Under the pieces are notes generated by a model, which was not told where the DNA came from, ran no database searches, and worked only from the letters and a program-made list of their open reading frames with translations. 25,300 nt of DNA. It comes from a bacterium (GTDB lineage: Bacteria; JAJVIF01; JAGGVT01). Position numbers and translations under genes: made by a program. This document shows, in pieces, positions 1-25,278 of the stretch (its first letter is position 1; every line of letters starts with the position of its first letter). The stretch lies in the NCBI GenBank assembly GCA_021157815.1, contig JAGGVT010000104.1, positions 1-25,300 of the forward strand, read 5' to 3'.

Positions 1-2177
1 CCTACCGCAGGTGTGCAGTAGTATGCATTTCCGATTGGCGCTGTCCAGTTAATCGCGCCTGTTTGCGGGTCCATGCTGCGGATTCCATCCGATGCCGGCA
101 CAATGAAATTACCATCAAGATCAAGCGTGAGATTGGCGTCGCATTTTATTGAACCGGGAGTGTTCCAGATTTCGGAGCCATCACTTGCATCAAGCCCATA
201 CAAAGTGCCATTATTGCTTTGTGCGCAAAATACAACGGAACCATCCGCACTTAAACCTTTGCATGCCAGATATGTATTTCCGTCTGAGCTGAAAGCCTGG
301 GTCCATGCCAATGAGCCATCGCTGAGATTAACCGCGGCGGTGTATCCGTTGGTTGAACCCGAACCGACAGTACTGACGAAAGCCATATCTTCATTGAGGA
401 AAATCTGCAGCGAGTTCCAGACACAGACATCGTTGCTCCAATCCGGTGCGCCCAGCGGGTTGGATGGCCCGTAAAGTCCAACACAGCCTGTGTTCCCGAT
501 ATTACCCTGAGTGGTGGGCCATATCGGATAAATTTGCTCGACTACATTGAAACTGACAACGGCAATGTCTGTCGCGTCAAGGTTGTCAATTACACGAACC
601 GCGGCATAAAACGTGCCAAGAGTATCGTAAGCATCCGATTCCTTTGTGCAGATTGGAGTCATGGTTGTGGCATCTGCGATAAAATTTTCTTCCAAACCAT
701 CTGCAATATCATAGTCCCATTCGTATTGAACGATTGTGCCGTCAGGGTCACTGGATGCTGTAGCATCCCAAACTATTGTGCCACCAAGAGCTACTTCCTC
801 ATCAATGGGAATGAGATCAGCCACAGGATCTTCATTGACTATTACAACTGGCATTTCAAATAACGCGTATGTTGCGAATTCGGAAATGTCAAATAATCCT
901 GTCAACGGATTTTCAATCGGACCAACGCGCTTGATGCCGTCCATACCGTTAAGTAGTGGTGATTCGTTCAATCCCGGTGAATAGGAATCGACAACCTTGA
1001 CCAGTCCGGTGTATGTTCCCTCCACACCGCTGGCTGTATTTGTGATTGTCGCGGCATAAACAAGCGGGTCGGATGGGTCGTGGCCTGTTCCTGTCGGCGA
1101 GGAGATATCCACAACAACCAACCCTGTTTCAACGCCGGGAACCTCAATTGTAATGCTGCCCACAGAACTGTCGGCAAACATTTCATCGAGGTTTGAGCCA
1201 ACCGCAACGCCATGATTGACATCAACTACATGGATTTCAACATCTGCGGTTGACGCGATATCTCCTTCCGCAAGATTATTAGCGATAATTTCGACTGAAA
1301 CCTCGCTTGCCGCTTTCTTGTTGTGCTGCGGAACTCGATATTCAGGAGTGAATCTTTCATTCTTGCTTGCTGAACTGACAGCATAAGTGCATCCGACCGC
1401 GTAGATGAAATCGAATGTGCCGTCGATGTCGAAAACGTAATCCTGATAATCGTAATCGCAGCCCATTGCCATAACCAGATTCCCGCTCGGAGGCGGATTT
1501 GTTACGCTTTCGAATCCCATCAGGTTCGACGCATCGAAATTGCCGGCAGTGTAGTCATCGAAATGTAATATGTATGGGTGCACTGTCGCATCGGTTGGAT
1601 AGATGTCATCGAGAACTGTATCCAGATATGGAGTGTAGCCATCAGCATTTACGAGAGTGAATCCGGCTGTTGTTTCTCCCAATCCGACAAATGTTATTCC
1701 AGTCGTGTTTGAAACGACAGTTCCCTCGACATTGAACACATGCAAATCTCCGCGGTTCTTCCCTGAAATCGGCTTAAGCAGGTCGCCAGCCGGGAACGGG
1801 TGTTTTATTCCGATTGAAACAACAAAGTTGCCATCAGCATCGAGAGATATCGAATCTATTTTAGCGCAATCGGAGCACGGCGCCATTTGAAGGAAGTTGG
1901 TTATATCAACAACTTCGAGAACATCTGTTAATGCGCTCTGTCGAAGAGGTGTCAGTTCGGCGCTGATTTCATCACTGTTCACAAACAGGTTGAAAATTCC
2001 AAGAGCGCCCATGCCGGCTGCAGGGGAGCCATCGGGGAATCTGTCCGATACGCCAACCAGAGGCTGTCCGGAAAGACCATTTTCAGAAGGTGTCGCAGGA
2101 TTGGTTTGAGAGGAACATCCTGCAAGAATAACAAATGCAAAACTTAAAAATAATGCTACTATTGCTCGTTGAAACAT
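1..2177 (-). CDS. Surface lipoprotein, shared N-terminal module + PKD + PQQ-like propeller (3' end beyond window)
   Basis: Reading the reverse complement from the ATG at 2177 gives one open frame of about 725 codons that reaches base 1 without a stop, so the gene is cut by the window edge. GAGGT lies 8 bases before the ATG. The N-terminus is a lipoprotein signal (MFQRAIVALFLSFAFVILAGC) with lipobox LAGC, predicting lipid anchoring. Residues about 35-440 form the module shared with the next two genes: VGVSDRFPDGSPAAGMG, a CSDC pair, HPYILHFDDYTAGNFD, MAMGCDYDYQDYV and PEYRVPQHNKKAASE. Residues about 445-545 look like a PKD domain (ATASSDPDGTIVQYEWDYD). After about 560, repeated blade motifs such as DGSLAWTQAF, DGSEIWNT and TGAINWTAP indicate a PQQ-like beta-propeller. 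The role is unknown; binding or surface display is inferred. Confidence in the gene is high, in function low. Confidence 0.9.
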   Translation of the reverse strand, partial: MFQRAIVALFLSFAFVILAGCSSQTNPATPSENGLSGQPLVGVSDRFPDGSPAAGMGALGIFNLFVNSDEISAELTPLRQSALTDVLEVVDITNFLQMAPCSDCAKIDSISLDADGNFVVSIGIKHPFPAGDLLKPISGKNRGDLHVFNVEGTVVSNTTGITFVGLGETTAGFTLVNADGYTPYLDTVLDDIYPTDATVHPYILHFDDYTAGNFDASNLMGFESVTNPPPSGNLVMAMGCDYDYQDYVFDIDGTFDFIYAVGCTYAVSSASKNERFTPEYRVPQHNKKAASEVSVEIIANNLAEGDIASTADVEIHVVDVNHGVAVGSNLDEMFADSSVGSITIEVPGVETGLVVVDISSPTGTGHDPSDPLVYAATITNTASGVEGTYTGLVKVVDSYSPGLNESPLLNGMDGIKRVGPIENPLTGLFDISEFATYALFEMPVVIVNEDPVADLIPIDEEVALGGTIVWDATASSDPDGTIVQYEWDYDIADGLEENFIADATTMTPICTKESDAYDTLGTFYAAVRVIDNLDATDIAVVSFNVVEQIYPIWPTTQGNIGNTGCVGLYGPSNPLGAPDWSNDVCVWNSLQIFLNEDMAFVSTVGSGSTNGYTAAVNLSDGSLAWTQAFSSDGNTYLACKGLSADGSVVFCAQSNNGTLYGLDASDGSEIWNTPGSIKCDANLTLDLDGNFIVPASDGIRSMDPQTGAINWTAPIGNAYYCTPAV

Positions 2178-2195
2178 AATATTTACCTCACATGT

Positions 2196-2223
2196 GTTTT
2201 ATGCAAGAACAACTTATTTGCAA
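2196..2223 (-). promoter_or_regulatory. Possible promoter of the PKD/PQQ lipoprotein gene
   Basis: On the minus strand TTGCAA (2218-2223) and TAAAAC (2196-2201) are separated by 16 bases, about 20 bases before the ATG at 2177. The match to a vegetative promoter is moderate. It would let this gene be transcribed separately from the upstream paralogs, which lie beyond a repeat and a broken gene. Confidence 0.3.
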
Positions 2224-2284
2224 AATGTGACCAGCCAGACTTTACCAGTCGCCGAGGGGACCCTAAATCCGCGATTGAACTCGT

Positions 2285-2316
2285 TGTCATTCCGGGCTTG
2301 ACCCGGAATCCATCTT
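2285..2316. repeat. Dispersed palindromic repeat (TGTCATTCCGGGC type)
   Basis: The 32 bases are identical to 25247-25278. The core contains CCGGGCTTGACCCGG, an inverted pair with a short loop, and the flank ATGGATTTCC continues in inverted sense to about 2342. Similar short palindromes are scattered through many bacterial genomes. This copy interrupts the lipoprotein remnant. Confidence 0.8.
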
Positions 2317-2592
2317 GACAAGCGAAAAAGATATGGATTTCCAGTGTGCCTGTGAGGAGCACTTCGGTATTCGAGTTGGAAAGATCCGCATCCGGCAGAC
2401 CGGGACTGTCCGGCTGAGTCGGCAGATTTGATGAGTTTGAGCATCCAACAAAACAAAGCGCCATGATGAAACTTAAAACCACCAAATAGCTTTTCGCAAT
2501 AATTTTATCTCTCCTGAAAAGAATTATTAGCCATTTACATATTTTATCAGATAGTTGGCTGAAATGACCTCTTTGTTTTATCGGCCACTTAT

Positions 2593-5154
2593 CTACGTCA
2601 AAAGCCCGACTGTCTCGCCGCCGGGACCGCCGTGGCATCCCATACGGCTTCCACTACCGGAAGCGCCGTCCCAGTCATCAATGGACGGGTCGCCGTTTTG
2701 TGCCGGTGATGTTGGTGAGACATCATAATCCTCAGTGGATGGATCATTGTAATCAGGGTCAACGAAAATGCAACCGATTCCCTCATGCACAGTGCATACA
2801 GGGCAGCCGGCAAAGTATTGGCTCATATCATAAAAGCATGAGTAGTCGCAGTACAAATCCTCATACAACGCTTTTACGCCACAGTCATTGCCAGGAGGAG
2901 AACCACTATAGTCTAAATGTGTCACAATGTTGTTGATAAACGTAGGATTGCTGCAGCTGTCAAAGAAATATCCAACAAGGTTCTGGATAAAAAAAGCTTT
3001 ACTGCTGTCCAGATTATCCACTGTGTTGTTGATAACCTCTGCACCTGAGCAATTTATAAAGTGGAACCCGCTTATCATGACTGCTCCCATGAATCCCATG
3101 CTGGCATCCGGAGTGATATGGTGTACAAGGTTGTTCTTCACGACCACATTTGCTGAACTCTCTATGTAGCAGGGATAGATGTTCTTGCCACTGCCGTCAG
3201 GAGTGGGTCGGATGTCAGTGAAGACATTGTTCCGCACAGTCAATCCGGGACAGTTATTGGCATACACCCCGTTGAAGTAGTTGCATCCGTAGTCTGATGT
3301 GTCTTTGTCGAAGCCTGCCATTCGGCAATGAGCAATGGTCAGGCTCGTTGTATCGGAGGCTATTATAGGATCAACAACTGCATAATTCGTCAGACCTGTG
3401 AATAAGCAATCTTGTATTGAATTGTTCGATCCGCCATCTACACTGAGCATCTCCATGTAATCATTGCTGCCACACGGTCCCGCGAACCCGATCTGGAATC
3501 CCTTAAGGGTCGCATTGTCAACACCGTCGAAATGTACCGAATGGGTATCAGGATCATCGGGACCATCAATAAACGCACGATCACCTCCATCCGTGTCGTC
3601 CCAGTTTACTGAGAGTACGATTACATCCGATGCCATGTTCACGTGCTCTTCATAAGGAGTTCCTGAATCATCTACCCAGACCTCGAAATCAACCAGCAGC
3701 GCTGCTGCGTCGATGCCATCCTGGATGTTGTCGAACGGATTGGTTCTTGTTCCGTCGTACAGGGGACCCGGATGCGAGTTGTCAACAAAAATAGAAGTAA
3801 CTGTCTCGGCAACATCAATAGTGAAGGTCTGGTATGTGGCAAATTCCGCAATATCAAACAAGCCTTCAAGCGGATTATCAAGCGGATCAACACGCTCGAT
3901 GCCGTCCATGCCATTTAGAAGCAGTGATTCATTCAGACCGGGAGCATAGCTGTCTGTGACTTTTACAAGGCAGTTGTATGTCCCCTCGGATGCGTTTGCT
4001 GTATTCATCATTATTGCGCCGAAAGCAAGAGGATCGGAGGGGTCATGCCCGGTTCCGGTTGGGGAGGAGACATCGACATTCAGTATGTTGGTTTCAATTC
4101 CCGGAGCGTCAATTGTTATCGCGCTGACAGAACTGTCAGCAAGCATCTCGTCAAGGTTTTCACCAACCGCAACGTCATGATTGATATCAACAACATTAAC
4201 TCTAATCACCGCAGAGGATAATACATCACCCCCTTCAAGATCATTGCTGATAATCTCAACACTCACCTCACTTGCAGCTTTTTTGTTGTGCTGTGGGACT
4301 CGATATTCAGGATTAAATCTTTCATTCTTGCTCGCTGAACTGACAGCATAAGTGCATCCAACCGCGTAGATGAAATCAATAGTGCCATCAATGTCGAAAA
4401 CATAATCCTGGTAGTCGTAATCGCATCCCATCGCCATTACCAGATTCCCGCTCGGTGGCGGGTCTGTAACACTTGCGAATCCCATCGGATTCGACGCATC
4501 GAAATTGCCTGCGGTGTAGTCGTCGAAGTGAAGGATATACGGATGGATTGTCGCATCGGTTGGATAGATGCCATCCAGAACTGTATCCAGATATGGAGTG
4601 TAGCCATCAGCGTTTACAAGAGTGAATCCGGCAGTGGTTTCACCTAATTCGGCAAATGAGTAACCAGCAAGGTTTGAAACGATTGTTCCTTCGATGTTGA
4701 ACACATGAAGGTCGCCGCGATTTTTACCGGAGATTGGCTTAAAGGGGTCTCCTGCGGGAAACGGGTGTTTTATCCCGATTGACACAACAAGATTGCCATC
4801 GGCATCAAGTGAAACCGACCCGATTTTTGCGCAGTCGTAACACGGTGCCATTTGAAGAAAGTTTGTTATATCAACAATCTCAAGAACGTCTGTTAACGCG
4901 GTTTGTCGAAGCGATGCCAATTCAGCTGTGGCATTAACCGGGTCAACACTGAGATTGAATAATCCGAGCACACCCATGCCGGATGCGGGGGAGCCATCGC
5001 TGAATCTGTCCGATACTCCAACGGGAAGAGTGTTTGATGAAAATGTGTCTGAACCATGTCCGGGTAGTGTAACAAGGCTGTTTCCACCGGAGCATCCTGC
5101 GAAAATCGCAAAGATGAGAATTACAAAAGCTGTTAGTATTGCTCGTAATAACAT
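2593..5154 (-). CDS. Surface lipoprotein, shared N-terminal module + right-handed beta-helix
   Basis: Encodes about 853 residues. I chose the ATG at 5154 over an in-frame ATG at 5169 because GGAGGT (5162-5167) is correctly spaced for it, and the product then begins MLLRAILTAFVILIFAIFAGC, a signal peptide with lipobox FAGC. Residues about 30-460 are the module shared with both neighbours (CYDC pair, YPTDATIHPYILHFDDYTAG, MAMGCDYDYQDYV, PEYRVPQHNKKAASE, LNGMDGIERV). From about 470, IFVDNSHPGP...DGTRTNPFDNIQDGIDAA is a typical DUF1565/beta-helix entry, followed by repeated N-N-x-V/I rungs such as VRNNVF, VKNNLVHHI, VINNTVDNL and FINNIVTHL. The C-terminus SRMGCHGGPGGETVGLLT is nearly the same as in the upstream paralog. 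Beta-helix proteins are often carbohydrate-active or adhesive; no catalytic site is recognisable. Confidence 0.93.
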   Translation of the reverse strand: MLLRAILTAFVILIFAIFAGCSGGNSLVTLPGHGSDTFSSNTLPVGVSDRFSDGSPASGMGVLGLFNLSVDPVNATAELASLRQTALTDVLEIVDITNFLQMAPCYDCAKIGSVSLDADGNLVVSIGIKHPFPAGDPFKPISGKNRGDLHVFNIEGTIVSNLAGYSFAELGETTAGFTLVNADGYTPYLDTVLDGIYPTDATIHPYILHFDDYTAGNFDASNPMGFASVTDPPPSGNLVMAMGCDYDYQDYVFDIDGTIDFIYAVGCTYAVSSASKNERFNPEYRVPQHNKKAASEVSVEIISNDLEGGDVLSSAVIRVNVVDINHDVAVGENLDEMLADSSVSAITIDAPGIETNILNVDVSSPTGTGHDPSDPLAFGAIMMNTANASEGTYNCLVKVTDSYAPGLNESLLLNGMDGIERVDPLDNPLEGLFDIAEFATYQTFTIDVAETVTSIFVDNSHPGPLYDGTRTNPFDNIQDGIDAAALLVDFEVWVDDSGTPYEEHVNMASDVIVLSVNWDDTDGGDRAFIDGPDDPDTHSVHFDGVDNATLKGFQIGFAGPCGSNDYMEMLSVDGGSNNSIQDCLFTGLTNYAVVDPIIASDTTSLTIAHCRMAGFDKDTSDYGCNYFNGVYANNCPGLTVRNNVFTDIRPTPDGSGKNIYPCYIESSANVVVKNNLVHHITPDASMGFMGAVMISGFHFINCSGAEVINNTVDNLDSSKAFFIQNLVGYFFDSCSNPTFINNIVTHLDYSGSPPGNDCGVKALYEDLYCDYSCFYDMSQYFAGCPVCTVHEGIGCIFVDPDYNDPSTEDYDVSPTSPAQNGDPSIDDWDGASGSGSRMGCHGGPGGETVGLLT

Positions 5155-5192
5155 TACTGTAACCTCCAAAACACGGGATAGAGTATTTTTGC

Positions 5193-5218
5193 AGACAAGA
5201 GGCTTAAGCCCCTTGTCT
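5193..5218 (-). other. Strong intergenic hairpin between two lipoprotein genes
   Basis: AGACAAG and CTTGTCT flank a GGCTTAAGCC palindrome, so 26 bases fold almost completely. It begins 14 bases after the stop of the upstream paralog. On the transcribed strand it is not followed by a U run, so it is more likely an mRNA-processing or 3'-protecting stem than an intrinsic terminator. Confidence 0.5.
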
Positions 5219-5231
5219 GGATTTTATAATT

Positions 5232-7838
5232 CTAAGTCAGAAGACCTACAACCTCACCATCGGGACCGCCATGGCAGCCCATGCGGGAGCGGGTTTCCGG
5301 GTCGGTGTTTCCGGGATCGCCGGAAGGTGTCCCTGAATCATCCCAGTCAACATAATCAGGATGCCCCATTTGCGCCGCACCGCCGTACATTATGTCGAAA
5401 TTCTCCGATGCCGGGTCGATATAACCGGGCGCAACATCGATGCAGCCAGCGCCTGGAGCAGCCAGCTGGAAATAATGAGCGCCTTCACCGCTGGGGATTT
5501 TGATATCAAAAGTACAGGTATAGTCACATGTAAGAGGCTGCTCAGTTGACTGTATGCCACGTGCCAATGGGCTGCCATCCGGCGCCCATCCCGACGAATA
5601 AAGGTGAGTGGCGATGTTGTTATAGAAAGTTCCATCAGCCGAATAAAGAATCATATAGCCAAAACACTGGTTTATCATGAAAGCATGTGAGCTGTCAAGC
5701 ATTGATACGGTGTTATTGAAAACAACAGGATTCGCGCAGTTCTCAACATGAATGCCCTCAAGAAGTACCGCTCCCATATATCCCACTCCCGCCAGAGGTA
5801 CAATTGAAAATATGACGTTGTTATGAATTGTTGGATTAGGAGTGTTTTCAACATGAATCGTGTCAATAATCTTGGAGCCCTCATCCTCCGTTTCGCGGAA
5901 GTCGCTGAATGAGCAGTTGCGAACGGTACATGTATTACAATCAACAATATAAACCGGATAAACCAAGGTCATGCCATATTCATCCACAATTCTGTCTAAA
6001 TCATCAAAACGGCAATACTCAACCGTGATATTGGTTGTGTTCTCGAAAAAGCAGGGAGCAATGGATAAATCCGAAGCACCAGTGAACAGGCAGTCGCGCA
6101 CAGTTACATCATGGCCGTTATCACACCGGATGAAATAATTCATGGAAGAACCGTCAACAGGCCCTCCGGGATAGCAATTAAATGTCTCGATTGTGAAATT
6201 GCCAACACCATCACCAATAAAGCAACAGGCATCGTCCACATCATCAGGCGGGTCGATTGTGGTTCGCGCTCCGCCATCGCTGGTGTCCCAGTTAACCCCC
6301 CTGACATGAACATTGTCGAGCATGTTCACAGTTTCCACATAAGGAACGCCTGAATCATCGACTCGTACTTCCCATCCCGCAGAACAGTTGTCCACTCCTT
6401 CCTGAATAGTGTTATATGGATGTTCGCGAGAGCCGTCCTCAGTTCCGGATGTGTTGGAATCATCGACATAAACAGCATCGTTTGTTATGTCAACAAGGAT
6501 TGAGAAAACCTGATATGTGGCAAATTCCGTTATTTCAAAAGCGCTGTAAACCGGATTGTCCGTTGGGGGAACTCGCTTGATTCCGTCCATGCCGTTCAGA
6601 GCCGGTGTTTCGTTAAGACCGGGTTGATAGGTGTCTGTTACTTTTACCAGACCGCTGTATGTTCCAACAACCGCGTTTGCAGTGTTCATGACAGTTCCTG
6701 AATAGACAAGCGGTTCGGATGGGCTGTGGCCTGTACCCGAAATAGCGCTGCCGCCGTCAATAACAAGTGTATCAATCATTACTCCGGGAATTTCAACCGT
6801 AATCTCATCAACCGAGGAATCCGCGAGCATTTCATTTCGAGCATTTCCGACCGGCACATCCTGGCTGATATCAACAACATTGATTTCAATCTCAGCAGTT
6901 GACAATGTATCGTCCTCTTCAAGATTGTTGCTGACAATTTCAACCCACAATTCACTGGCGGCTTTTTTATTGTGCTGAGGCACTCGGTATTCCGGATTAA
7001 ATCTCATGCTGTATGTTTCCGTGCTGATTGCGTACGTGCATCCAACAACAAAGAAAAAATCAACGTAATCGTTGCCAAGACTGAGGACATAATCTTTGTA
7101 GTCATAATCGCAGCCCATAGCCATAACCAGGTTACCGGTCGGTGGCGGATCTGTAACGCTTTCAAACCCCATCGGATTTACGGCATCGAAATTGCCCGCG
7201 GTGTAATCATCAAAGTAAAGAATATATGGATGAATTGTCGCATCGGTTGGATAGATGCCATCCAGAACCTCGTCAAGATAACCCGTGTAGCCATCGGCGT
7301 TTACGAGAGAGAATTCTGCAATGGTCTCTGAAGTATCTGTAAATTCAACTCCGGGAAGATTCGAAACAAGAATTCCCTCGATATTGAAGACATGCAAATC
7401 AGCGCGATTTTTCCCCGTGATTGGCAGAAGCGGATTGCCGGATTCAAATGGATGCCTGATTCCGATTGACACGACAAGATTGCCATCAGCATCAAGTGAA
7501 ACCGCTCCGATTTTCGCGCAGTCGGTACATGGTGACAATTGCAGGAAATTCGTGATGTCAACAACCTCAAGGACATCTGTTAATGCGGTTTGTCGAAGCG
7601 ATGTCAATTCAGCTGCGGCGTTAATTGGATCAACACTGAGTTGGAATAATCCCAGCGCGCCCATGCCGGATGCGGGAGAGCCATCTGGGAATCGGTCTGT
7701 TACGCCAACCGGAATTGAATTGTAAAGTCCGACAGTGTTATTTCCATCAATGGACAAGGATGCAGGATTTGAGCCTGAACAGCTTGAAAAAACAGTCAAC
7801 GATAAAAGAAGAATTGTAATAATTAGTGTAAAGCGCAT
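5232..7838 (-). CDS. Surface lipoprotein, shared N-terminal module + right-handed beta-helix
   Basis: Encodes about 868 residues from the ATG at 7838. The frame is open to 7886, but only the inner start gives a clean signal peptide (MRFTLIITILLLSLTVFSSC, lipobox FSSC). Upstream GGGGTTA is only a weak ribosome-binding site. The N-terminal module matches the two downstream paralogs (PVGVTDRFPDGSPASGMG, CTDC, KNRADLHVFNIEG, NLVMAMGCDYDYKDYV, PEYRVPQHNKKAASE). From about residue 475, VYVDDSNTSGTEDGSREHPY and NTIQEGVDN open a beta-helix with rungs such as VRNCSF, IHNNVIFSI, VFNNTVSML and FYNNIATHL. It ends SRMGCHGGPDGEVVGLLT. It is the first gene of the tandem set in the direction of transcription, with 77 bases to the next start. 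Surface exposure is inferred from the lipobox; no enzymatic activity can be assigned. Confidence 0.93.
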   Translation of the reverse strand: MRFTLIITILLLSLTVFSSCSGSNPASLSIDGNNTVGLYNSIPVGVTDRFPDGSPASGMGALGLFQLSVDPINAAAELTSLRQTALTDVLEVVDITNFLQLSPCTDCAKIGAVSLDADGNLVVSIGIRHPFESGNPLLPITGKNRADLHVFNIEGILVSNLPGVEFTDTSETIAEFSLVNADGYTGYLDEVLDGIYPTDATIHPYILYFDDYTAGNFDAVNPMGFESVTDPPPTGNLVMAMGCDYDYKDYVLSLGNDYVDFFFVVGCTYAISTETYSMRFNPEYRVPQHNKKAASELWVEIVSNNLEEDDTLSTAEIEINVVDISQDVPVGNARNEMLADSSVDEITVEIPGVMIDTLVIDGGSAISGTGHSPSEPLVYSGTVMNTANAVVGTYSGLVKVTDTYQPGLNETPALNGMDGIKRVPPTDNPVYSAFEITEFATYQVFSILVDITNDAVYVDDSNTSGTEDGSREHPYNTIQEGVDNCSAGWEVRVDDSGVPYVETVNMLDNVHVRGVNWDTSDGGARTTIDPPDDVDDACCFIGDGVGNFTIETFNCYPGGPVDGSSMNYFIRCDNGHDVTVRDCLFTGASDLSIAPCFFENTTNITVEYCRFDDLDRIVDEYGMTLVYPVYIVDCNTCTVRNCSFSDFRETEDEGSKIIDTIHVENTPNPTIHNNVIFSIVPLAGVGYMGAVLLEGIHVENCANPVVFNNTVSMLDSSHAFMINQCFGYMILYSADGTFYNNIATHLYSSGWAPDGSPLARGIQSTEQPLTCDYTCTFDIKIPSGEGAHYFQLAAPGAGCIDVAPGYIDPASENFDIMYGGAAQMGHPDYVDWDDSGTPSGDPGNTDPETRSRMGCHGGPDGEVVGLLT

Positions 7839-17087: not shown

Positions 17088-19328
17088 TCAGGAATCATCC
17101 TGAGGAATATTTTCTGATGGGATATTTTCTGATGGCATCTCTTCCAAATCCTCCAGGGATTGTTTTATTTCATTAGACGGCCTTGAGAGAAATTGAATCA
17201 TATGTTGCAGAAACTGGTTGTTTTCATCGCGTTCGAGCGCGTCAAGAATGACATGCCTCGCATCGTCGTAACGCTCAAGATGTATCAACGAAACGGCATA
17301 CATGTGATACCAGACACTATCCGTGTTTCCGCTGTTGATAAGTTTTTCAAGGACATCGCATGCGCCGATGTAGTTTTTCTCATTAAGATGGAGCCTTGCG
17401 AGAATCCCCGCGGTTGGAAACTGTCCTGTCTCAGGAGCAAAGGCAGGATCAAGAAGAAACGAACGTGTGAACATCTCAAGCGCAAGGTTGTGTCTTTCCG
17501 TATTCTGGTAAAACACACCGTAGTTGTAATATGCCGCGACATACTTACTGAGAATTTCTTTTTCATAAGGGTCAAGATTATCCGTTGTGAAATCAAGTTT
17601 TGCAGCGTAAAACATATTGAACAACGCGGAATTCAGGCATGGCATGGTATGTAAATCGCTCTTTTTCCCGTATGCGAAAATCACGCCATCAGGCATAATT
17701 TCCAAATCATATGTTACGGGTTTAAAAACAGGTAAGAAAGAGAAATAGATCTTTCTGTAAGGATTGGCAACCATGAGCTTTTCGACAAACATGTTTGGCT
17801 GTATTCGGTCGCCTGCGACAAAAGTATCAGGCACGCTGAGATCGGGATATTCCCTTTTCATGGAATCCCACCACCACGAATTGGTTTTAGTCAGCGCATC
17901 ACTTTCCAGAACAACAACATCCCTGCGGACATTCGCAACCTGCTGCAGATACCAGAAAAGGAATTGTTCGTCACCATCAGTAATAAGTATTGAGCTTTCC
18001 GGGATACTGCAGAGTACATCGAAAGCGTAACGTGAGCCGAGATTATGGTCGCGCATCGTGAATCTGCCGCCGTGTGAATTGTAAAATCCCAGAGCCATTA
18101 CAAGCAAAACGGCAAAAATTAGAACAGCGAAAAGAAAACGCGTACCGGTTTGTTTGATAATTCGAGGCACATCCTCAAGCATCCAGCTAAACATATATCC
18201 GATAAAAATCGCGAACACAAGATGCGCGGGGATGTAGTAAACTTCCAGATAGAATAATTCAGGCTGAGATATTTTTCTGAAATAGAAAAAATAGGGAACG
18301 GTTATGAATAAATAGCACAGTCCGAGCATTAGCCCAAACCGTTTGCCCTTTATCAGAGCAATTAAAAGCCCGATGTAGCCGAAGATCAGGAACCATTTAC
18401 CATACGCATTATTGAGCCATCCGTTGTATGCCTTTGCCAGTCCGCCCATTCTCAGGGATTCATCGCTGAATTTGATTGATTCTTTTATTCCCCTGTATTC
18501 CGAACGTGTTGCCACTTTGAAAAAATTGCCGATATTTTCCGGATTGCCCCAGTCCAGGAACGGATCTTTCGCGGACGCTGATGGCAAATATAAATTAGGA
18601 AGCAATCCGACCACAAAGAAAAACAACATTCCCCAGATTATGCCTTTGGTAAGTTTGATCTTTTTCGCGGAAAGTGCGAGAAAGAGAAACACGGCGACGG
18701 GAAGCAGCATCGCGAGTACGGATGTATGATGCGAAAGCCCCAAACCGAACAACAGCGCGACAAGGAGCAATCGCCATGATGTCGGTTTTTCATTGATTAA
18801 AACCAGCACATAGATAATCAGAGCTGTAATCAGCGCGTGAAGCGTATAAACCTCTCCAATCAGGCATTGTGAAAGGAAAGTCGTGCCGGTTGCGAATAAA
18901 AACGCGCCCAGAAACGCGGCAAAAGGATTTTTCATCGCTCGCGCGATGATAAAATAAACAACAAGCACTGTGATAACGCCAATCCAGAGGGACATCATGT
19001 TCATTCGAAACGCGACATCGAAAATACCATCCGGGTATGCTGTCGATGGCGAAGCGAATGGAAGGTGGGAGAAGATCCGTCCAAGCATTGTAAACAAGGG
19101 GTATCCGGGTGAATGTGCAATCCCGGATGTGTATGCCGCCGTTGCCAATTCGCCTGCATCGCCGACGGGAAGTACGGGGCACACTCTCACACCATAAATT
19201 ATCCGTGTTGTAATTGCGAGAATAACAACAAGAATCGCGGATATTGGAATCAGTTTAACGTGTTTTGAATCACGATTACTGTCCGTCCCGCGGGAGTCTG
19301 ATATGTTGAAATAACCACGAGCTGCCAT
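17088..19328 (-). CDS. DUF2723 multi-pass membrane protein with C-terminal TPRs
   Basis: Encodes 746 residues. After a polar N-terminus and a first membrane segment (about 26-44) comes GDAGELATAAYTSGIAHSPG (56-75), the DUF2723 hallmark; D57 and E60 correspond to the acidic pair placed at the catalytic loop of related GT-C glycosyltransferases. About ten further hydrophobic segments extend to about residue 420. A soluble region follows, with ILITDGDEQFLFWYLQQVAN and a TPR stretch (YYNYGVFYQNTERHNLALEM, CDVLEKLINSG, YAVSLIHLERYDDARHVILD) near 590-715. The acidic tail contains a tandem PSENI repeat. The likely role is transfer of a sugar from a lipid carrier to an extracytoplasmic acceptor, inferred from the family. 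A promoter lies 41-69 bases upstream. Confidence 0.92.
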   Translation of the reverse strand: MAARGYFNISDSRGTDSNRDSKHVKLIPISAILVVILAITTRIIYGVRVCPVLPVGDAGELATAAYTSGIAHSPGYPLFTMLGRIFSHLPFASPSTAYPDGIFDVAFRMNMMSLWIGVITVLVVYFIIARAMKNPFAAFLGAFLFATGTTFLSQCLIGEVYTLHALITALIIYVLVLINEKPTSWRLLLVALLFGLGLSHHTSVLAMLLPVAVFLFLALSAKKIKLTKGIIWGMLFFFVVGLLPNLYLPSASAKDPFLDWGNPENIGNFFKVATRSEYRGIKESIKFSDESLRMGGLAKAYNGWLNNAYGKWFLIFGYIGLLIALIKGKRFGLMLGLCYLFITVPYFFYFRKISQPELFYLEVYYIPAHLVFAIFIGYMFSWMLEDVPRIIKQTGTRFLFAVLIFAVLLVMALGFYNSHGGRFTMRDHNLGSRYAFDVLCSIPESSILITDGDEQFLFWYLQQVANVRRDVVVLESDALTKTNSWWWDSMKREYPDLSVPDTFVAGDRIQPNMFVEKLMVANPYRKIYFSFLPVFKPVTYDLEIMPDGVIFAYGKKSDLHTMPCLNSALFNMFYAAKLDFTTDNLDPYEKEILSKYVAAYYNYGVFYQNTERHNLALEMFTRSFLLDPAFAPETGQFPTAGILARLHLNEKNYIGACDVLEKLINSGNTDSVWYHMYAVSLIHLERYDDARHVILDALERDENNQFLQHMIQFLSRPSNEIKQSLEDLEEMPSENIPSENIPQDDS

Positions 19329-25246: not shown

Positions 25247-25278
25247 TGTCATTCCGGGCTTGACCCGGAATCCATCTT
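25247..25278. repeat. Second copy of the TGTCATTCCGGGC palindromic repeat
   Basis: The 32 bases are identical to 2285-2316, and the similarity continues more loosely (AAGC, GAAAA, GGATT) to the window edge. Confidence 0.8.

Follow-up and report, generated by a model that had tools for sequence, protein, structure and literature searches.

A constant N-terminal module followed by many different C-terminal domains in an apparently undescribed family of predicted envelope lipoproteins

The stretch of DNA analysed here (the window) is a complete contig of 25,300 bases (C35), belonging to a genome of 3.2 Mb that is assembled in 221 contigs and is 91% complete. ORF analysis of the window places three lipoprotein genes, P3, P2 and P1, on the minus strand at the left contig end, where the P1 ORF runs off the contig after 725 aa. 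The features of this region are the following:

5232..7838, minus strand: P3 lipoprotein gene, 868 aa, constant module and beta-helix, lipobox FSSC at residues 17-20
6492..7706, minus strand: P3 constant module, 67% identical to the P1 module
5235..6491, minus strand: P3 C-terminal beta-helix cargo (Beta_helix, 1.5e-7)
2593..5154, minus strand: P2 lipoprotein gene, 853 aa, constant module and beta-helix, lipobox FAGC at residues 18-21
3811..5019, minus strand: P2 constant module, 78% identical to the P1 module
2596..3810, minus strand: P2 C-terminal beta-helix cargo (Beta_helix, 5.1e-6), about 41% identical to the P3 beta-helix
about 2336..2482, minus strand: remnant of a fourth family member, the start of a type-2 lipoprotein (lipobox, tether and first module strand)
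2286..2311, minus strand: 26-bp palindromic repeat GGATTCCGGGTCAAGCCCGGAATGAC, 116 genome copies with at most 2 mismatches
3..2177, minus strand: P1 lipoprotein gene, with module, PKD domain and PQQ-type propeller, lipobox LAGC at residues 18-21
840..2054, minus strand: P1 constant module, with domain 1 at about 1329-2015 and domain 2 (Ig/PKD-like) at about 846-1328
570..836, minus strand: P1 PKD domain (PKD_4, 6.7e-7, residues 448-536)
33..359, minus strand: part of the P1 PQQ-type propeller (PQQ_2, 2.2e-8, residues 607-715)

The remnant lying between P1 and P2 (2336-2482) is 57% identical over 49 aa to a complete relative (L043:4731-6530), with an E value of 1e-12 computed within a small ORF set. 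Type 2 designates a second, more distant subfamily, which carries a shorter form of the same module. This broken fourth gene stops just before the 26-bp palindromic repeat, located just downstream of it; a second copy of the repeat is found in the window at 25248-25273, and many of the genome copies lie at contig ends. Upstream of P3 (8009-8223) lie inverted repeats that are nested (18 nt perfect, 25 nt at 84% and 16 nt perfect) and look like one mobile miniature element within another. Further along, positions 17091-19328 encode a TMEM260-like protein O-mannosyltransferase with TPR repeats. The animal TMEM260 enzyme modifies TIG domains, and a weak TIG match is found in one cargo region (L082); that the O-mannosyltransferase might glycosylate the family lipoproteins is only a guess.

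The initial annotation had described a shared lipoprotein module in the three genes, and indeed we find about 405 residues that are 67-78% identical, with a lipobox in each protein (AGC, AGC and SSC in P1, P2 and P3, respectively). Pairwise module identity is 78% for P1/P2, 70% for P2/P3 and 67% for P1/P3; BLASTP aligns P1 with P2 at 74% over 448 aa and P1 with P3 at 64% over 440 aa, and the P2/P3 alignment (53% over 862 aa) includes the C-termini. Among the long stretches that had been reported as identical, PEYRVPQHNKKAASE and MAMGCDYDY are the same in all three proteins, but HPYILHFDDYTAG reads HPYILYFDDYTAG in P3. Profile matches agree with the C-termini first noted, a PKD domain plus a PQQ propeller in P1 and a beta-helix in P2 and P3. 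As the beta-helices of the last two are homologous, there are only two C-terminal types within the window.

The very similar DNA of the shared part was, on the other hand, an overstatement, and neither a recent duplication of the three genes nor gene conversion between them is supported. Fourfold-degenerate sites of the module are only 50% identical (79/159 for P1/P2 and 72/142 for P2/P3), with 25% expected by chance. For the silent sites along the three genes, whose comparison had been suggested as a check, Sawyer-type runs tests over 157 silent polymorphic codons were flat (p = 0.81, 0.28 and 0.045, uncorrected), and none survives correction. We also rejected the possibility that P2 is chimeric, with the module of a P1-like gene and the tail of a P3-like one. 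The raw identities hint at this (78% vs 70%), but P2 falls with P3 on the module tree, with a support of 94/97 that is marginally below the program's own threshold. The trio thus fits ordinary duplication with a differing P1 tail, P1 alone differing in cargo within the window.

The three genes belong to a large family. Searching their own genome with the P1 module returned 85 matches, and 81 family ORFs were recovered from the fetched DNA; about 75 of these were long enough for analysis and together amount to 209 kb. This is 6.5% of the assembly for the close subfamily alone (about 80 copies). A profile spanning both subfamilies gave 136 matches in the window's genome and 133, 134 and 114 in the others, so that all four sampled species of the phylum are covered; these counts are approximate, since one gene may be split over several matches and at most the best 150 candidates were scored per genome. 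One of the four genomes is near-complete, in 4 contigs, and its count is comparable, hence the high number is not an assembly artefact. Outside the phylum, neither profile matched any of 381 genomes (best four or five candidates scored in each), and a run on 40 genomes in which every candidate outside the phylum was scored gave no match either, nor did a phage search with P1. Among the genomes sampled, the module is therefore restricted to this phylum.

In their genomic arrangement, 59 family genes stand alone and ten clusters hold two or three members each. Many copies lie at contig ends (C8, C18, C82, C124, C128, C145, C153, C179 and others) with some cargo ends missing, and given these copies the number in the window's genome is probably higher than counted. 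In a distant species of the phylum, five family lipoproteins follow one another (L128, G002:C2:192000-207500). Two genes about 5 kb apart in L135 (G002:C1:1621000-1633000) have the same signal peptide and C-termini of equal length (513 aa), and are apparently a very recent tandem duplication. Another member (L043:2477-4486) shows an in-frame TAG near the module start; the gene may be decaying, or the codon may be an error of sequencing. We did not find a description of such a family in the freely accessible literature; it thus appears to be an undescribed family of lipid-anchored envelope proteins, with more than 100 members per genome in one small phylum.

The module had not been recognised as a named domain in the initial annotation, and the family models bear this out. 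No Pfam or NCBIfam model scores above its curated cut-off in any of 70 members, the Pfam result being the same with 39 diverse members, and a sequence search of solved structures with the module returned nothing significant. AlphaFold2, given 70 aligned natural modules, yields a two-domain, all-beta model (pLDDT 90, pTM 0.90), for which Foldseek reports no match at E<=0.001 for the whole module. Domain 2 (residues 236-390) is an Ig/FnIII/PKD-like sandwich (Z 8-10, rmsd 2.1-3.3 over 81-101 residues) that matches several unrelated folds of this class; this arrangement is a very common one and is uninformative on function. Domain 1 (residues 1-229), modelled alone with a pLDDT of 90, has no clear structural match: VP37 comes first (Z 7.2, others 5.0 and below), and there is again no Foldseek match at E<=0.001. 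Seven residues, C47, C50, H72, R88, P229, D265 and D343, are invariant among the 70 members of the close subfamily. A metal site formed by C47, C50 and H72 is doubtful: several type-2 proteins retain the CxxC without the His, which favours a disulfide over metal binding by Cys and His.

What follows the module is diverse. Coverage clustering distinguishes about 31 C-terminal architectures in the window's genome, the exact number varying with the clustering threshold. The cargo domains comprise PKD, fn3 and TIG domains, beta-helices and propellers of the BNR, PQQ, SBBP, LVIVD and Kelch types; when 74 C-termini were compared to NCBIfam, 25 families were matched, choice-of-anchor B, I, J and Q among them. 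In the distant species G002, Reprolysin-like and M57 metalloprotease domains and FG-GAP domains are found. These names are typical of extracytoplasmic binding domains; in other bacteria such cargo types bind polymers or break them down, and they may, by analogy, do so here. The initial annotation had named beforehand a known domain in the module, or a single type of C-terminus, as outcomes that would speak against it; the module matches no family and is found with these many architectures.

Several observations bear on the exchange of C-terminal domains that had been suspected. Of 70 members, only 10 have the same nearest relative by module and by C-terminus; in the other 60 the two differ, and the C-terminal types are scattered over the module tree. 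Indeed, 11 multi-member cargo groups require 24 changes on this tree, for a minimum of 10 and a shuffled mean of 32.6. Furthermore, we compared 82 pairs of proteins whose modules are similar but whose cargo bears different labels. In 58 of them, similarity stops no more than 15 residues from the module end; in the remaining pairs it continues through a shared PKD-like domain, or the gene is truncated. Because the histories of module and C-terminus disagree and similarity ends at the module boundary, we conclude that cargo has been exchanged many times beyond a junction that is fixed at the module end. Within the window this exchange process is an old one, given the divergence at fourfold sites (50% vs 25% by chance) and runs tests that show no conversion.

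A clear lipobox is present in 75 of the 81 family ORFs, the remaining six being cut by contig ends or broken, and the lipobox Cys is directly followed by a Ser in 74 of the 75. All of 36 sampled members are lipoproteins in G002, which has a good assembly; there the residue after the Cys varies. The lipobox is followed by a tether of 25-57 residues, in which Ser, Pro, Gly, Asp and Asn abound. Signal peptidase II (PF01252) scores above cut-off in all four phylum genomes and Omp85 is present in the window's genome; together with the lipobox, this makes it very probable that the family proteins are lipid-anchored in a two-membrane cell. The anchoring membrane is probably the outer one, where the cargo might face the cell surface; lipobox, signal peptidase II and Omp85 argue for the lipid anchor but for neither side of the membrane. 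The proteins could instead be held in the inner membrane with their cargo in the periplasm, which is consistent with LolA not being detected in any of the four phylum genomes.

We favour, with a probability of about 0.6, the reading that these are phylum-restricted envelope lipoproteins whose module is an anchor or stalk presenting exchangeable cargo. Each protein is built of a signal peptide with lipobox, a flexible tether, the constant module, modelled as two beta-sandwich domains, and a C-terminal cargo that can be exchanged. Cleavage by signal peptidase II and lipidation of the Cys are established lipoprotein biology, and would here hold the N-terminus in what is probably the outer membrane. 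The tether and the module would act as a stalk, a role that we infer for the module, keeping the cargo clear of the membrane and toward its substrates or partners. Propellers, beta-helices, PKD arrays and choice-of-anchor domains would be presented in this way, and occasionally protease domains. The repertoire would have grown by gene duplication and by replacement of everything past the fixed boundary at the module end. A pure stalk would have no obvious need for invariant C47, C50, H72 and R88, a hint that, in the close subfamily, the module may do something more specific.

Other roles of the module have to be weighed against this one. It could be an N-terminal signal for sorting and display, recognised by an outer-membrane machine of its own that would deliver any attached cargo to the surface, well over 100 different ones per genome, as an N-terminal counterpart of type IX secretion. 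In favour of this, a single conserved module with invariant residues precedes, in one phylum, upwards of 100 cargoes per genome that are not otherwise related; the cargo includes choice-of-anchor domains, which carry other anchors in other lineages, and the apparent lack of LolA in the four phylum genomes points the same way. However, a partner machine was not identified, lipidation alone could place the proteins, and no site for cleaving off the module is visible, so that we hold this reading possible yet rather unlikely. Less likely still is that the module is a ligand-binding adhesin domain, for example a carbohydrate-binding one, with the cargo as an accessory. The beta-sandwich of domain 1 shows scattered likeness to the CBM2 and CBM29 folds, but these matches are weak (Z ~4, Foldseek E ~0.1 or worse) within a mixed set of best matches; moreover, the module is the conserved part, whereas adhesins usually vary in their binding part.

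We consider it quite improbable that the family results from ordinary paralogous expansion without display, its members being periplasm-facing scaffolds or assembly factors in the manner of BamB, itself a PQQ-type propeller lipoprotein. Four members give PQQ_2/BamB-like matches and Omp85 is present, but the scores are far under the BamB equivalog cut-offs (28.9 vs 285 bits for P1), and scores of different cargoes are ill-suited to a single assembly role. As for a secreted, APOBEC-like nucleic-acid deaminase, this is suggested by matches to PF18778, PF18750 and PF08210 in a few members (E 0.002-0.07), driven by a PCxxC motif and all under the curated cut-offs. We rejected this candidate, which we regard as extremely improbable: the 70 members have no conserved His-x-Glu upstream of the PCxxC, and the model is all-beta, not alpha/beta.

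An anchor or stalk with exchangeable cargo has partial parallels in known systems. The SusD-type expansions of Bacteroidota likewise comprise many lipoprotein paralogues within a single genome, but SusD is helical whereas the module model is all-beta, and the module has no SusD family match. The LipL53-type lipoproteins of Leptospira (NF047494) share the SBBP propeller, and six cargo regions match NF047494; this match is confined to the cargo, the constant module matching no NCBIfam model. The choice-of-anchor proteins (B, I, J and Q) have the same cargo domains as those found in the window's genome, but the anchor here is an N-terminal lipid with a new two-domain module instead of the usual C-terminal sorting tags. 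Among systems in which one module serves many cargoes, the family is closest in logic to the type IX secretion cargo of Bacteroidota, where a constant C-terminal sorting domain is likewise carried by many unrelated cargoes per genome in a restricted lineage (PMC5445135, PMC12618676). The differences are the N-terminal position of the constant module, beside the lipobox, and a machine that was not identified; the type IX C-terminal sorting domain is not among the 25 NCBIfam families matched by the 74 C-termini.

In conclusion, the family is best placed among the modular envelope lipoproteins, where it stands out for its size, for having the constant module at the N-terminus, for being confined to one phylum and for the share of the genome that it takes up. 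Naming the module would annotate a large share of the envelope proteome of this phylum. The family is also a natural data set for the evolution of a repertoire through cargo swaps behind a fixed junction, and it raises the question of how lipoproteins are placed in two-membrane bacteria that have no recognisable LolA.
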